From: Cellulosimicrobium cellulans
GTDB lineage: Bacteria; Actinomycetota; Actinomycetes; Actinomycetales; Cellulomonadaceae
DNA length: 64,000 nt
Assembly: GCF_006539945.1 (NCBI RefSeq)
Contig: NZ_BJNZ01000002.1
Coordinates: forward strand, 1 to 64,000
Direction of reading: 5' to 3'
Shown here: one piece after another, positions 33,672 through 39,321 of the stretch
Layout of the letters: every line of letters starts with the position of its first letter
Position numbering within the stretch: the stretch's first letter is position 1
The notes under the pieces: model-generated
The model's database searches: none
The model's input: the letters and a program-made list of their open reading frames with translations, nothing else
What the model was told of the DNA's origin: nothing
Made by a program: the position numbers and the translations under genes

Positions 33672-34796
33672 TCACCGCGTGCGGTCGCGCCGTGACTGGT
33701 GCTCCCGGCCGAGCCGACGGATCGCCTCCCACGGGTAGGGCGTCGACCGGCTCTCCCGCTGGAACGCTCGGTAGAAGTCCCCGACCACCGCCGCGACCGG
33801 GGCGTGCCGGGACAGCGTCGCCGCGACTGCCGAGGTGGCGCCCGTCGGGAGGCTGCCCTGAGCCCAGGAGCGCACGAGCGCGCGACGCTCGTCGGGACCG
33901 CACCCGTACAGGGCGACGGCCAGCCAGCTCACCAGGTGGGTGACGCTGTAGCAGTCGTCGTACTCCTGGTGCGCGGCGACGAAGTCGACCTCGTCGGGCG
34001 AGAGGTCGAAGCGGGAGGAGATCGCGAGGCCGAAGTCGGCGAGAAAGAGCCGCTCGCCGTCGGTCAGGACGTTCTCGAAGTGCGTGTCGAAGTGCAGCAG
34101 GCCCCGTGACCTCATGAACGAGATCCCGGCGCTCAGCCCGTCCTCCACCAGCGCGCAGGCGCGCTCGGCGGTCTCGCCACCGGCCTCGACCTGTGCGCCG
34201 AGCCAGTCGTGCAGCGTCTGCGGGACGTGCTCCAGGAACAGCACGATGCTCGCCGAGGAGTCGCGCAGGGCCTCGATCCGGCGACGCACCGCCGTACCGC
34301 CGCCCCAGTACTCGACGGCACGCTCGACGTCGGCCAGCTCGTCGGGCAGGGGCCGGCCCGCGTCGGGGAGCACCCGCCAGTGGTGCATCAGCGGAAAGCC
34401 CTCGTGGTCCCCCGCGATCACCCAGCCCGTCGTCATGACGTGCACGGCCAGCTCCCGCCAGGCCCCGAACCCCGGGGCGCCGATGGTGCCGACGCCGTAG
34501 TGGCAGAACGTCGGGAGGTCGAACAGGTTCGCCGTGGAGCGGACGTTCTCCGCCTGTCGCTCGAGGTCGGTGAGTCGTACGTGCTTGACGAACACGGGTG
34601 CGCCGTCGACGTCGAGCAGCATCGTCTCCCCGCCGATGCCCGCACCGACCCGCGGGGCGGCGTCCAGGAGCTCGCGGAGCCGGCGGTCGCTGTGCAGCGA
34701 CAGCGCGGTGCCGACCGCCGCGTGCCTGGCCAGGCGGGAAGCGCGGGACCTGTCGGGCAGGGCTGGCACCGTCTCGCTCCGCGGCTCGTCGGGCAC
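33672..34796 (-). CDS. Protein kinase-fold protein of unknown role
   Basis: This 374-residue protein shows a degenerate protein-kinase/aminoglycoside-phosphotransferase core: a candidate ATP-binding Lys at about 71 (VFVKHV), a hinge-like LFLEHVPQTLHDWL, the catalytic-loop pattern HFDTHFENVL (His 235, Asp 237, Asn 242) and the metal-binding DFG at 254-256 in LADFGLAI. A clear glycine-rich loop is missing (GAGIGGE near 51 is the best candidate). No membrane segment. The GTG start is 3 bases after the stop of a terC gene with no Shine-Dalgarno, so it appears to be the third gene of a riboswitch-controlled operon. Substrate, protein or small molecule, is unknown. Confidence 0.75.
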   Translation of the reverse strand: MPDEPRSETVPALPDRSRASRLARHAAVGTALSLHSDRRLRELLDAAPRVGAGIGGETMLLDVDGAPVFVKHVRLTDLERQAENVRSTANLFDLPTFCHYGVGTIGAPGFGAWRELAVHVMTTGWVIAGDHEGFPLMHHWRVLPDAGRPLPDELADVERAVEYWGGGTAVRRRIEALRDSSASIVLFLEHVPQTLHDWLGAQVEAGGETAERACALVEDGLSAGISFMRSRGLLHFDTHFENVLTDGERLFLADFGLAISSRFDLSPDEVDFVAAHQEYDDCYSVTHLVSWLAVALYGCGPDERRALVRSWAQGSLPTGATSAVAATLSRHAPVAAVVGDFYRAFQRESRSTPYPWEAIRRLGREHQSRRDRTR

Positions 34797-34799
34797 GCG

Positions 34800-35927
34800 C
34801 TATCGCGCGGCGCCGTCCTGCGGGCCCGTGCCCCACGGCGGTGTCTCGCCGACCGGCGCGCCCCCGTCCACGGACTCGACCTCGGGGTCCTGGACCGCGT
34901 CCTCCACGACGGCGGCAGCACCGCCCGTCGCGGCCACCTCGGAGTCGTCCTGGGCGTGCAGCGCCCGTGTGCGCAGGAGGCTCGCGACCGTCGTGACGGC
35001 GAGCGCGCCGACGATCACGACGAGCGACAGCCAGATCGGGACCGTCGGCACGGCGTCGAGGTGCTCGCCGCCGTTGATGAACGGCAGCGTGTTCTCGTGC
35101 AGCGCCTCGAGGATGAGCTTCACGCCGATGAATCCGAGGATCACCGCGAGACCGATCGGCAGGTAGACCAGCCGCTCGAGCAGGCCACCCAGGAGGAAGT
35201 AGAGCTGACGCAGGCCCATGAGCGCGAAGACGTTCGTCGTGAAGACGATGAACGGGTCCTGGGTGAGCCCGAAGATCGCGGGGATCGAGTCGAACGCGAA
35301 GAGCAGGTCGGTGCTGCCGATCGCGAGGAACACGATGACGAGCGGGGTGAAGACCCGCTTGCCGTCCTCGACCGTGCGCAGCCGGCCGCCGTCGTACTGC
35401 GTGCCCAGCGGCAGCACCTTCCGCAGCGCCCGGACGGCACGGTTCTCGTGGTACTCCTCCGGCTCGTCCCCACCGGCCACGAGCTTGATCGCCGTGTAGA
35501 TGAGGAACGCGCCGAACAGGTAGAACACCCACACGAACTGCGCGATGATCGCCGCGCCCGCCAGGATGAACGCCCCGCGCAGGACGAGCGCGACGATGAT
35601 GCCGACCATCAGCACACGCTGCTGCTGGTCCCGCGGCACCGCGAACCTGGCCATGATGATGACGAACACGAAGAGGTTGTCCACGGAGAGGCTGTACTCC
35701 GTGAGCCATCCCGCGTAGAACTCCCCGGCCGGTGCCGCCCCGCCGACCGCGCCCACGATCGCCCCGAAGACGAGGGCGAGCGCGACGTAGAAGCCGACCC
35801 ACAGCGCGCTCTCGCGCATCGAGGGGACGTGCGGGCGGCGCCCCACGACGAACAGGTCGACGAGGAGCAGCACCGCGAGCGCCGACAGCGACGCCCACTC
35901 GAACCAGACGGGGAGCTCGTGAACCAT
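34800..35927 (-). CDS. TerC family membrane protein (second copy)
   Basis: A 375-residue integral membrane protein of the TerC/Alx family, linked to Mn2+ export or metal loading of secreted proteins. Two family motifs with acidic residues lie in helices: YSLSVDNLFVFVI and FAFDSIPAIFGLTQD, and INGGEH near the C-terminal helix. A hydrophilic, acidic tail of about 55 residues follows the last helix. Its ATG overlaps the stop of the upstream terC gene by one base (TGATG). The two copies are clearly paralogous, so they probably arose by tandem duplication. Confidence 0.93.
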   Translation of the reverse strand: MVHELPVWFEWASLSALAVLLLVDLFVVGRRPHVPSMRESALWVGFYVALALVFGAIVGAVGGAAPAGEFYAGWLTEYSLSVDNLFVFVIIMARFAVPRDQQQRVLMVGIIVALVLRGAFILAGAAIIAQFVWVFYLFGAFLIYTAIKLVAGGDEPEEYHENRAVRALRKVLPLGTQYDGGRLRTVEDGKRVFTPLVIVFLAIGSTDLLFAFDSIPAIFGLTQDPFIVFTTNVFALMGLRQLYFLLGGLLERLVYLPIGLAVILGFIGVKLILEALHENTLPFINGGEHLDAVPTVPIWLSLVVIVGALAVTTVASLLRTRALHAQDDSEVAATGGAAAVVEDAVQDPEVESVDGGAPVGETPPWGTGPQDGAAR

Positions 35928-36931
35928 CAGCGTGAGCCCTCCGAGCTCTCGACGGAGCGCCGACGGTCGGCGCGGTCCTTGGCGAGGCTCGCGACCGTGG
36001 TGATCGTGAGCACGACGACGATGAACCCGAGGGACAGCGCGGTCGGGATCTCCGGGATGACGGTGATGTGCTCACCGCCGTTGATGAACGGCACCTCGTT
36101 CTTGTGCAGCGCGTGGATGAGCAGCTTGACGCCGATGAAGCCGAGGATCGCCGCGAGGCCGTACGCGAGGTAGACGAGGCGGTCGAGGAGGCCGTCGATG
36201 AGGAAGTAGAGCTGGCGCAGGCCGAGCAGCGAGAACGCGTTGGCGGCGAAGACCAGGTAGGTCTCCTGCGTGAGGCCGAAGATCGCCGGGATCGAGTCGA
36301 CCGCGAAGAGGAGGTCGGCGCTGCCGATCGCGATCATCACGATGAGCATCGGGGTGATGTAGCGCTTGCCGTCGATCCTCGCCGTCATCTTGTCCTCGAC
36401 GTACGTCTCCGTCGTCGGGAACAGGCGGCGGGTCAGCTTCAGCGCGCCGTTCTCGTGGAACTCCTCGTCGTGACCCGAGCCCGCCTTGACCTGCGTCCAC
36501 GCGGTGTAGAGCAGGAACGCGCCGAAGACGTAGAAGATCCAGCTGAAGTTCTCGATGAGGGCCGCGCCGAGCAAGATGAAGATCGTCCGCAGGACCAGCG
36601 CGATCGTGATGCCGATGAGCAGCACCTTCTGCTGGTAGAGCCGCGGGACGCGGAAGCTCGTCATGATGAGGACGAACACGAAGAGGTTGTCGACCGACAG
36701 GCTCTTCTCGGTGATGTAGCCGGCGAAGTACTCGCCGCCGTACGTCGAGCCCCAGACGGCCCAGACGATCCCTCCGAAGGCGACCGCGACCGCGACGTAG
36801 CCGGCGGACCACCAGGTCGCCTCGCGCAGGCTCGGTGCGTGCGGGGTCCGCACGTGCCCGACGTAGTCGACGGCGAGCATCGCGAGGATCACGCCGATGG
36901 TGACGAGCCAGGCCCAGACAGGCACATCCAT
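35927..36931 (-). CDS. TerC family membrane protein (first copy)
   Basis: A 334-residue TerC/Alx-family protein with about eight to nine helices and the acidic motifs KSLSVDNLFVFVL and FAVDSIPAIFGLTQE. Family members are Mn2+ exporters or support metal insertion during secretion. The start is the ATG at 36931 with GGAGGAA 5 bases upstream; this Shine-Dalgarno can be sequestered by the riboswitch described at 36939-37104. The cytoplasmic loop carries HDEEFHENGALKLTRR. It leads a terC-terC-kinase-like operon. Confidence 0.95.
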   Translation of the reverse strand: MDVPVWAWLVTIGVILAMLAVDYVGHVRTPHAPSLREATWWSAGYVAVAVAFGGIVWAVWGSTYGGEYFAGYITEKSLSVDNLFVFVLIMTSFRVPRLYQQKVLLIGITIALVLRTIFILLGAALIENFSWIFYVFGAFLLYTAWTQVKAGSGHDEEFHENGALKLTRRLFPTTETYVEDKMTARIDGKRYITPMLIVMIAIGSADLLFAVDSIPAIFGLTQETYLVFAANAFSLLGLRQLYFLIDGLLDRLVYLAYGLAAILGFIGVKLLIHALHKNEVPFINGGEHITVIPEIPTALSLGFIVVVLTITTVASLAKDRADRRRSVESSEGSR

Positions 36932-36938
36932 GAAGATT

Positions 36939-37104
36939 CCTCCGGTACGTGGGGAGCACTGTGTACCGAAGGTCTCTTCCGCCACGCACCGCCACGCGCA
37001 CCCGCGCGGGACGCGGGCTGGTGGTTGCGGGACCGGTGACACCGGGCCGACGACTGCGCCGACCGTGATGACGACATCACCGCGGAGGAATACTCCCCTT
37101 CAAC
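36939..37104 (-). promoter_or_regulatory. yybP-ykoY (Mn2+) riboswitch with translational switch
   Basis: The leader has the conserved yybP-ykoY parts in order: GAAGGGGAGTA (37091-37101), GTCGTCA (37069-37075) and GAGACCTTC (36968-36976). P1 forms between GAAGG (37097-37101) and CCTTC (36968-36972), extendable by two G-U pairs. The 3' strand of P1, CCTTCGGTAC (36963-36972), is also complementary over 10 bases (one G-U) to GTACCGGAGG (36939-36948), which contains the terC Shine-Dalgarno. Ligand-bound P1 should free the ribosome site; without ligand the alternative stem should hide it. The switch mechanism is inferred from pairing. Confidence 0.87.
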
Positions 37105-37112
37105 GAGGAGCC

Positions 37113-37118
37113 AGCATA
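37113..37118 (-). promoter_or_regulatory. -10 element of the terC operon
   Basis: TATGCT on the minus strand stands about 9 bases before the first riboswitch base, so transcription would start just ahead of the aptamer. A TTGCCA lies 20 bases further upstream, too far for an ideal -35. Confidence 0.45.
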
Positions 37119-37212
37119 GGCCATCGCTCCTCCTGACGTGGCAACACCACGCCACCGTGGACTGTTCCTCGGTGGCCCGTGGGCGGTGCGCACGTCGCCC
37201 AGCGGCGACCCG

Positions 37213-39321
37213 TCAGGCGGTCGCGGCCTGCATCTGCCGCAGCTCCTTCTTGAGCCCCGAGATCTCGTCGCGCAGCCGGGCGGCGAGCTCGAACTGCAGC
37301 TCGCCCGCGGCCGCGTGCATCTGGTCGCTCAGCTCCTGGATGAGCTGGGCCAGGTCGCTCGCCGCGGCGCCCGCGAGCCGGTTGCCCGACGACGCGCCCT
37401 CCTTGGGCCCGCCCGGCACCGGCGCCTTGCCCTTCGCGCCCTTGCCCGGCTGCCGGTACCCGCCTGCCAGGAGCTCGGCCGTGTCGACGTCCTCGCGCGC
37501 GAGCATGTCCGTCACGTCGGAGATCCGCTTGCGCAGCGGGGTCGGGTCGACCCCGTGCTCCGTGTTGTACGCGATCTGCCGCTCGCGACGGCGCTCGGTC
37601 TCCTCGATCGCCGCGGCCATGGCCGGCGTGATCTTGTCCGCGTACATGTGCACCTGACCCGACACGTTGCGGGCCGCACGACCGATCGTCTGGATGAGCG
37701 ACTTGGGCGACCGCAGGAAGCCCTCCTTGTCCGCGTCGAGGATCGCGACGAGCGACACCTCGGGCAGGTCGAGGCCCTCGCGCAGGAGGTTGATCCCGAC
37801 GAGGACGTCGTACTCGCCGAGGCGCAGCTCGCGCAGCAGCTCGACGCGCCGCAGCGTGTCGACCTCGGAGTGCAGGTACCGCACCCGCACGTCCTTCTCG
37901 AGCAGGTAGTCGGTGAGGTCCTCCGCCATCTTCTTGGTGAGGGTCGTGACGAGAACGCGCTCGTTCCGTTCGACCCGCTCACGGATCTCGTGCAGCAGGT
38001 CGTCGATCTGCCCCGTGGTGGGCTTGACGAGCACCTCCGGGTCGACGAGGCCGGTCGGGCGGATGATCTGCTCGACGACGCCGTCCGCCATCGAGAGCTC
38101 GTAGTCGCCGGGGGTCGCCGACAGGTACACGGTCTGACCGATCCGCTCGACGAACTCCTCCCAGCGCAGGGGCCGGTTGTCCATCGCGCTCGGCAGGCGG
38201 AACCCGTGGTCGACGAGGCTGCGCTTGCGCGACATGTCGCCCTCGAACATCGCGCCGATCTGCGGCACGGTCACGTGCGACTCGTCGATGACGAGGAGGA
38301 AGTCCTCCGGGAAGTAGTCGAGCAGCGTGTTCGGCGCCGATCCCGCCTCGCGGCCGTCGATGTGCCGCGAGTAGTTCTCGATGCCGGACGCGGTGCCGAT
38401 CTGGCGCATCATCTCGATGTCGTACGTGGTGCGCATGCGCAGCCGCTGCGCCTCGAGCAGCTTGTTCTGCCGCTCGAGCTCGTCGAGCCGCTCGGCGAGC
38501 TCGGCCTCGATCGAGGAGATCGCGCGCTCCATGCGCTCCGGCCCCGCGACATAGTGCGTCGCGGGGAACACGTGGATGCTCGGCTCGGACCGGATCACGT
38601 CACCCGTGAGCGGGTGCAGGGTCTGGATGCTCTCGATCTCGTCGCCGAAGAACTCGATGCGGACCGCGAGCTCCTCGTACACCGGGATGATCTCGACCGT
38701 GTCCCCGCGCACGCGGAACGTGCCGCGCGTGAACGCCATGTCGTTGCGCGTGTACTGCATGGTCACGAACTGCCGCAGCAGGTCGTCGCGCTCGACCTGC
38801 ATGCCGACGTCGAGCCGGACCATGCGGTCGACGTACTCCTGCGGCGTGCCGAGTCCGTAGATGCACGACACGGAGGCGACCACGACGACGTCCCGACGGG
38901 TGAGGAGGGAGCTCGTGGCGGAGTGCCGCAGCCGCTCGACCTCGTCGTTGATCGACGAGTCCTTCTCGATGTAGGTGTCCGTCTGCGCGATGTACGCCTC
39001 GGGCTGGTAGTAGTCGTAGTACGAGACGAAGTACTCGACCGCGTTGTTGGGCAGCAGCTCCCGGAACTCCGTCGCGAGCTGCGCCGCGAGGGTCTTGTTG
39101 GGCGCCATGACCAGCGTCGGGCGCTGGAGCTCCTCGATGAGCCACGCCGTCGTGGCGGACTTACCCGTCCCGGTCGCGCCGAGGAGCACGACGTCCTTCT
39201 CCCCCGCGCGGATGCGCTGCGAGAGGTCCGCGATCGCCGTCGGCTGGTCGCCGGACGGCTGGTACTCGGAGATGACCTCGAACGGGGTGGTCGCACGCTG
39301 GAGATCGGTCACGGGACGCAT
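37213..39321 (-). CDS. uvrB: Excinuclease ABC subunit B
   Basis: UvrB is the helicase-like damage-verification subunit. The 702-residue protein has Walker [14 protein letters not shown], the beta-hairpin region [20 protein letters not shown], the DESHVTVPQ motif II, the C-terminal helicase block [16 protein letters not shown] and QTIGRAARN, and a UVR motif at the end ([18 protein letters not shown]) that binds UvrC. The ATG at 39321 (MRPVTDLQR) matches homologues; upstream in-frame codons are not conserved. No LexA-type box is seen upstream, unlike uvrA. Confidence 0.97.

Follow-up and report, generated by a model that had tools for sequence, protein, structure and literature searches.

The closest described relatives of the element discussed here are the leaders of the Escherichia coli alx and mntP genes, reporters of which are described as manganese-induced, and more so at alkaline pH (PMC9603457), while in another member of the same yybP-ykoY class Mn2+ is reported to stabilize the helix P1.1 (PMC6754395). 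A three-way member without the P2 hairpin has been reported for Streptococcus mgtA (PMC9495176). The class is already on record in actinobacteria: yybP-ykoY is named among the motifs present in >75% of a set of groups to which Corynebacteriaceae and Mycobacteriaceae belong (PMC3766115), and the 5′-UTR of Corynebacterium glutamicum cg2157 (terC), seen in RNA-seq, was annotated as yybP-ykoY by Rfam at 49.13 bits (PMC3890552). In the titles and the opening parts of abstracts that we searched, a coverage outside which most subscription journals lie, we found no description of an alx-type Mn2+ riboswitch across actinobacteria, nor any record in that literature of its spread in actinomycetes or of its being missed by the standard model.

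The window, by which we mean the whole 64,000-nucleotide stretch of Cellulosimicrobium cellulans DNA analysed (contig NZ_BJNZ01000002.1), carries a leader on the minus strand, between uvrB and two terC genes (Table 1), that is very probably a translation-controlling yybP-ykoY (Mn2+) riboswitch of the alx type. Both TerC proteins score well above the curated cut-off (246.4 bits) of TIGR03718, a family that NCBI names ‘R_switched_Alx’, which confirms the tandem terC pair of the preliminary description. The ATG of the first gene begins at 36931, and the start codon of the second overlaps the stop codon of the first by one base. Three bases past terC 2 lies a further minus-strand ORF (33672–34796) with a weak, sub-cut-off, protein-kinase-like Pfam match and no NCBIfam match, which may be an additional member of the operon. 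Upstream of the leader, a −10-like hexamer of the form TANNNT starts 17–24 nt before GGGGAGTA, a sequence common to the E. coli alx and mntP leaders, in 69 of the 70 family leaders described below, and from its position we expect transcription to start near 37107–37104, at the 5′ edge of P1. A simple sigma-70 scan returned no two-hexamer promoter.

Table 1. Coordinates of the genes, helices and loops of the terC leader region, as positions in the window.
Feature	Position	Strand	Evidence or remark
uvrB	39402-37213	minus	upstream neighbour of the leader
−10-like hexamer TATGCT	37113..37118	minus	TANNNT in 69/70 family leaders
P1 (P1.1 of the crystal papers), 5′ strand; switch helix	37097..37104	minus	pairs with 36972-36965; GC/AU compensatory change in core
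L1, GGAGUA of GGGGAGUA	37091..37096	minus	GGGAGTA invariant in 48/48 aligned leaders
P1.2, 5′ strand (UUCC)	37087..37090	minus	pairs with 36980-36977; UA/CG/GC pairs covary
P3+L3+P3.1	37034..37082	minus	two-sided changes in 12/12 P3/P3.1 pairs
P3 helix	37082-37077/37039-37034	minus	covariation
L3 (CGUCAUCACG...CCGG)	37076-37064 and 37045-37040	minus	CGUCA invariant 48/48, in E. coli alx too
P3.1 helix	37063-37058/37051-37046	minus	covariation
P4 arm	36981..37033	minus	length and sequence vary among relatives (alignment A1); three basal pairs predicted
P1.2, 3′ strand GGAA (36980-36977), and GAGA, 3′ side of L1 (36976-36973)	36973..36980	minus	alignment
P1, 3′ strand = anti-SD; shared switching strand CCUUCGGUAC	36963..36972	minus	pairs with 37104-37097 or 36948-36939; both conserved
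GUACCGGAGG, contains the terC Shine-Dalgarno (SD)	36939..36948	minus	95.6% of cells paired with anti-SD strand, 48 leaders
terC 1 (TerC/Alx family, 334 aa)	35927..36931	minus	PF03741 174 bits; TIGR03718 378.8 bits
terC 2 (375 aa)	34800..35927	minus	PF03741 171 bits; TIGR03718 379.7 bits; ORF list

The leader runs in the order GUUGAAGG-GGAGUA-UUCC...CGGUGA-UGUCGUCAUCACG-GUCGGC...GUCGGC-CCGGUG-UCACCG...GGAA-GAGA-CCUUCGGUAC...GUACCGGAGG...AUG, and so carries, between P1.1 and P1.2, the L1 motif faced by GAGA, as well as a P3 internal loop L3 with an invariant adenosine, in the window A37069, which is presumably the one that binds the metal in the crystal structures. A P2 hairpin or four-way junction is absent from both of our alignments (A1 and A2, below). 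The preliminary description had all conserved yybP-ykoY elements present; this holds for the alx subtype only, as E. coli mntP has a P2 hairpin without counterpart here.

Relatives of the leader were sought at the DNA level in 150 family genomes, 94 of which gave matches, the weakest of them probably due to chance. The 70 leaders taken are the top of the BLAST list, and thus a non-random set, and in all 70 a script allowing mismatches recognized the L1 motif, the L3 motif and GAGACC; a start codon could also be placed in 69, the remaining one (L011) ending at a contig edge. A filter at 90% identity left 49 leaders, which without L011 form the 48 of alignment A1. A second alignment, A2, and the covariance model R1 derive from 40 of these; as they omit eight leaders (L021, L022, L052, L058, L060, L063, L064 and L067, of which L052, L063 and L067 form 15–16 of the 20 aptamer pairs), percentages from A2 are flattering, whereas A1 covers all 48. 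In A1, other core positions besides GGGAGUA and CGUCA are also invariant, and P1, P3 and P3.1 are paired in 92.8% of cells as against 83.7% in shuffles and 25–49% in slid registers, with 95 two-sided cells as against 26 in shuffles, a number that none of 500 shuffles reached. RNAalifold, unprompted, added a four-pair helix of UUCC (after L1) with GGAA (before GAGACC) that shows strong compensatory change and that we take as P1.2 of the crystal papers, so that the covarying helices of the leader are P1, P1.2, P3 and P3.1.

The R1 model ends six bases into the 3′ strand of P1 and therefore carries no information on the Shine-Dalgarno sequence. It nevertheless finds the E. coli alx leader (L081) over model positions 1–110 with 52.5 bits and an E-value, rough due to a shortened calibration, of 6.4e-11, so that the homology extends over the whole aptamer and a chance resemblance to yybP-ykoY is rejected. 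An actinobacterial leader positive for RF00080 (L071) scores 33 bits and E. coli mntP just 13.6 bits (E 0.18), and the high score on alx with a low one on mntP places our leader on the alx side of the class. The assignment to the yybP-ykoY class made in the preliminary description is thus upheld by the alx homology together with the helix covariation, and on these sequence comparisons an alx-type yybP-ykoY element without P2 appears well supported. Within its own genome the window leader is the sole strong R1 match; a second copy was considered and rejected, the four other matches lying at E 0.35–7.4. No plasmid relatives were found at E 1e-5.

In contrast, the covariance check proposed with the preliminary description went against it: the Rfam model RF00080 (gathering cut-off 45 bits) does not match the leader at its gathering score, nor region 36800–37250 at E up to 10, nor any place in the genome at E ≤ 0.001. 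This miss does not decide membership, because with the same library (Rfam 15) E. coli mntP (L080) scores 41.6 bits, itself under the cut-off, and E. coli alx does not appear among the matches at E ≤ 0.01. The RF00080 model under-detects known members of the class.

The 3′ strand of P1 has two possible partners. Towards 37104–37097 its bases 36972–36965 form eight pairs, including three G-U, with a conserved core of five (37101–37097/36972–36968). Towards the SD stretch (36972–36963 with 36948–36939) it forms ten pairs with one G-U (36969/36942), as a script working on the coordinates verified, and the ten-base complementarity of the preliminary description stands. When the downstream stretch was shuffled 5000 times, the observed anti-SD/SD score was never reached, and nine of 3000 random places on the minus strand of the window attained it. 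Within the family, this helix is paired in A1 far more often than in slid registers (25–47%), although its covariation is modest: seven two-sided cells, with the observed number of pair types reached by 34 of 500 shuffles and that of two-sided pairs by five of 500. Few two-sided changes are to be expected where one partner has to stay a Shine-Dalgarno sequence. For example, at A1 column 153 the P1 pair changes from GC to AU in 19 of 48 leaders, while 45 of the 47 paired cells keep a G on the SD side, the U being tolerated by wobble. A stronger test than covariation in A1 is the exchange of partners across the class. Over 59 distinct terC leaders (the 66 described below minus five whose start lies >65 nt away and two duplicates), own partners score 19.8 as against 17.0 ± 0.34 for exchanged ones (best exchange 17.9, n = 200), with start codons assigned by script and just 30 of the 59 helices spanning at least four bases of the −13 to −5 stretch. 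Judged from these comparisons, the P1/SD alternative put forward earlier is conserved and covarying across the class.

How such a switch might operate is less plainly read from folding energies. In the lowest-energy fold predicted for the window leader the SD is buried, as in the OFF form. Nearest-neighbour energies, from a model without metal and without the L1–L3 contact, favour OFF over the aptamer form in all 48 leaders by a median of 11.5 kcal/mol, the aptamer state costing 14.3 kcal/mol in the window leader. Given this gap, switching at equilibrium lacks computational support. Enforcing the aptamer does lower the cost of opening the SD in every one of the 48 leaders (mean 9.0 to 2.7 kcal/mol). 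In the window leader this cost falls from 6.5 to 2.5 kcal/mol, and there the SD stays mostly paired, albeit weakly, with UCCCC in the loop (unpaired probability 0.03–0.28 per base). The preliminary claim that P1 and sequestration of the ribosome site cannot coexist is therefore correct for the ten-base-pair helix, which excludes P1, and goes too far for the site itself, most of the GGAGG remaining weakly paired with the loop UCCCC when the aptamer is formed. As the energies favour the OFF form and the SD is weakly paired in the modelled ON form, switching must rely on metal and tertiary contacts and on co-transcriptional folding; folding during transcription, which allows P1 to form while the SD is still untranscribed, is the likely way of switching. 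If transcription began early, upstream of 37107, the RNA would also contain a CUCCUC able to pair with the SD.

We infer Mn2+ as the ligand, and the ON direction, from E. coli alx and mntP, and by that analogy a translational ON switch is the most likely arrangement. In the absence of the metal, the 3′ strand of P1 would pair with the SD stretch and block translation of terC 1, and that of terC 2, given the one-base overlap, is probably coupled to it. Mn2+ bridging L1 and L3 would stabilize P1, and the stabilized P1 would withdraw its 3′ strand from the SD, such that terC translation rises and TerC proteins would be made at high manganese. The coupling and the role of TerC in transport are both inferred, and the ‘Mn2+ efflux operon’ of the preliminary description may be too narrow a term, since the B. 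subtilis TerC proteins are reported to have minor manganese efflux activity and to serve in metalating exported enzymes (PMC10550928).

Beyond the family, the alx-type leader appears to be widespread. R1 matches 136 of the 150 family genomes (those used in training included). In a class-wide draw of 246 genomes, which comprises, among the rows listed, the own genome and otherwise other families, it matches 145. In the same draw RF00080 matches seven genomes at E ≤ 0.001, none over its cut-off, and in a draw from the phylum eight of 246, one over the cut-off; searches over 40 genomes ran under stricter filters with few candidates scored, so that the R1 and RF00080 counts may both be low. We read 87 of the class-wide places (best matches, extra copies in multi-copy genomes and some single ones, with L166 and L107, the same place as L119, excluded) and assigned the downstream genes by motif: 66 precede TerC, 17 UPF0016 and three another protein without assignment, while one is ambiguous. 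An exact pattern search in named genomes gave at least 119 stretches, and the genera among the matches listed include Streptomyces, Mycolicibacterium, Microbacterium, Nocardioides, Actinomyces, Cutibacterium and others, with two that are by name non-actinobacterial, a Larsenimonas (L242) and a Thermomicrobiales MAG (L287). Among the matches listed, tblastn places TerC downstream in 106 of 115 judgeable stretches, superseding an earlier motif test that was too strict (64 of 119).

Several leaders precede other genes. Two pattern matches (L209 and L221, Kribbella sindirgiensis) have no TerC downstream; the latter lies ahead of a short ORF, in a genome where another copy (L215) precedes TerC. A large P-type ATPase (PF00122 and PF00702, by Pfam on L187 and L279) follows the aptamer in genomes of Mycolicibacter and Mycolicibacillus, an arrangement also seen by eye in L263, L276 and L282, which suggests a role in manganese for these ATPases. 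In Microbacterium (L176; L233:4750–5595) and three genomes of the taxonomic order to which the window belongs (L132, L137, L168), the aptamer lies before a protein of about 280 aa. These Microbacteriaceae-like proteins share the piece RAAIARYDYLL, matched no Pfam or NCBIfam family where tested, and are candidates for a manganese-related function.

The leaders of the UPF0016/GDT1 genes (e.g. L142, L144, L146, L148, L121, L157) have a longer expression platform than the terC leaders, which we analysed in 16 of the 17 loci, omitting L126 for its wrong start. In 15 of the 16 the 3′ strand of P1 pairs with a segment B over 8–12 bp, own partners scoring 26.6 as against 21.5 ± 1.1 for exchanged ones (best 25.2). 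Segment B can in turn pair with a later segment C (22.9 as against 19.05 ± 0.8, best 21.75), weakly in L140, L154 and L156. The final step, from C to the SD, was not above controls (18.7 as against 17.9 ± 0.8). The platform thus looks like a relay toward the SD, of which two of three pairings exceed exchanged controls. We consider it an even call whether the Actinomycetota hold a phylum-wide and largely unannotated branch of alx-type Mn2+ riboswitches, in which the platform was built twice, as a direct P1/terC-SD swap and as a UPF0016 relay, and which also precedes the P-type ATPases of Mycolicibacter and Mycolicibacillus and the unassigned Microbacteriaceae-like protein.

Other explanations of the window leader differ in what they would change. 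It is very improbable that there is no riboswitch at all, but merely a conserved SD stem-loop with upstream conservation of some other cause: RF00080 misses the leader and the predicted lowest-energy form contains the SD helix, yet R1 finds E. coli alx, P1.2, P3 and P3.1 covary, 83 of the 87 class-wide matches read precede TerC or UPF0016, and in at least two of the seven genomes with sub-threshold RF00080 matches (G411, G495:C69) these coincide with R1 places. A real aptamer that exerts its control mainly on transcription, through Rho or pausing, with the SD helix secondary, is a good deal less improbable, though we think it unlikely; ligand-dependent recruitment of Rho by riboswitch leaders is mentioned for riboswitches generally (PMC11087558). 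The partner of the switching strand, however, is the SD itself, in a conserved pairing, and no terminator-like site was found in 36800–37260, which speaks against an intrinsic terminator, in agreement with the translational rather than termination control proposed earlier.

Somewhat likelier than control of transcription, although still improbable, is that the same aptamer architecture answers to a changed or additional signal, either a divalent metal other than Mn2+ or, as in alx, a combination of Mn2+ with pH. A pH of 8.5 is described as sufficient to induce the alx reporter, with the strongest induction by manganese at this pH (PMC9603457), variants of the class with other metals as ligands are suspected (PMC7266159), and L3 differs from that of mntP. 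That loop is nonetheless alx-like (CGUCA, ACG), and alx responds to manganese; moreover, the window genes belong to the alx/TerC subfamily, and TerC lies downstream in most of the relatives counted above (66 of 87 and 106 of 115), all of which speaks against such a change of signal.

The leader itself is of a known riboswitch class, and its interest lies in the annotation gap: the standard model misses a type of Mn2+ riboswitch that is seemingly common in actinomycetes (seven as against 145 of 246 genomes). Once recognized, the type would suggest that many TerC and UPF0016 transporters, some P-type ATPases and one uncharacterized family are under the control of manganese. In addition, translational control by this riboswitch class could be tested in a simple system, the very short P1/SD switch.

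Among known systems, the cg2157 leader of C. glutamicum is, like ours, an actinobacterial terC 5′-UTR of the yybP-ykoY class, but its reported score exceeds the present RF00080 cut-off, which the window leader does not reach. With E. coli mntP and the RF00080 consensus our leader shares L1, P1.2, GAGACC and a metal exporter downstream, whereas mntP has a P2 hairpin and the L3 sequence GUCAACAUACU in place of CGUCAUCACG. The resemblance to E. coli alx is closer, comprising the L1 sequence GGGGAGUA, an L3 of the form CGUCAUYACG...CCGG, P1.2, a variable P4, the lack of P2 (alx as aligned to R1), GAGACC before the 3′ strand of P1, and downstream genes of the ‘R_switched_Alx’ subfamily. The two differ in their platforms: in the window leader the SD is itself the partner of the P1 3′ strand, and 36 nt separate the model match from the start codon, as against about 80 nt in alx, so that in our reading the link between P1 and the SD is less direct in alx.
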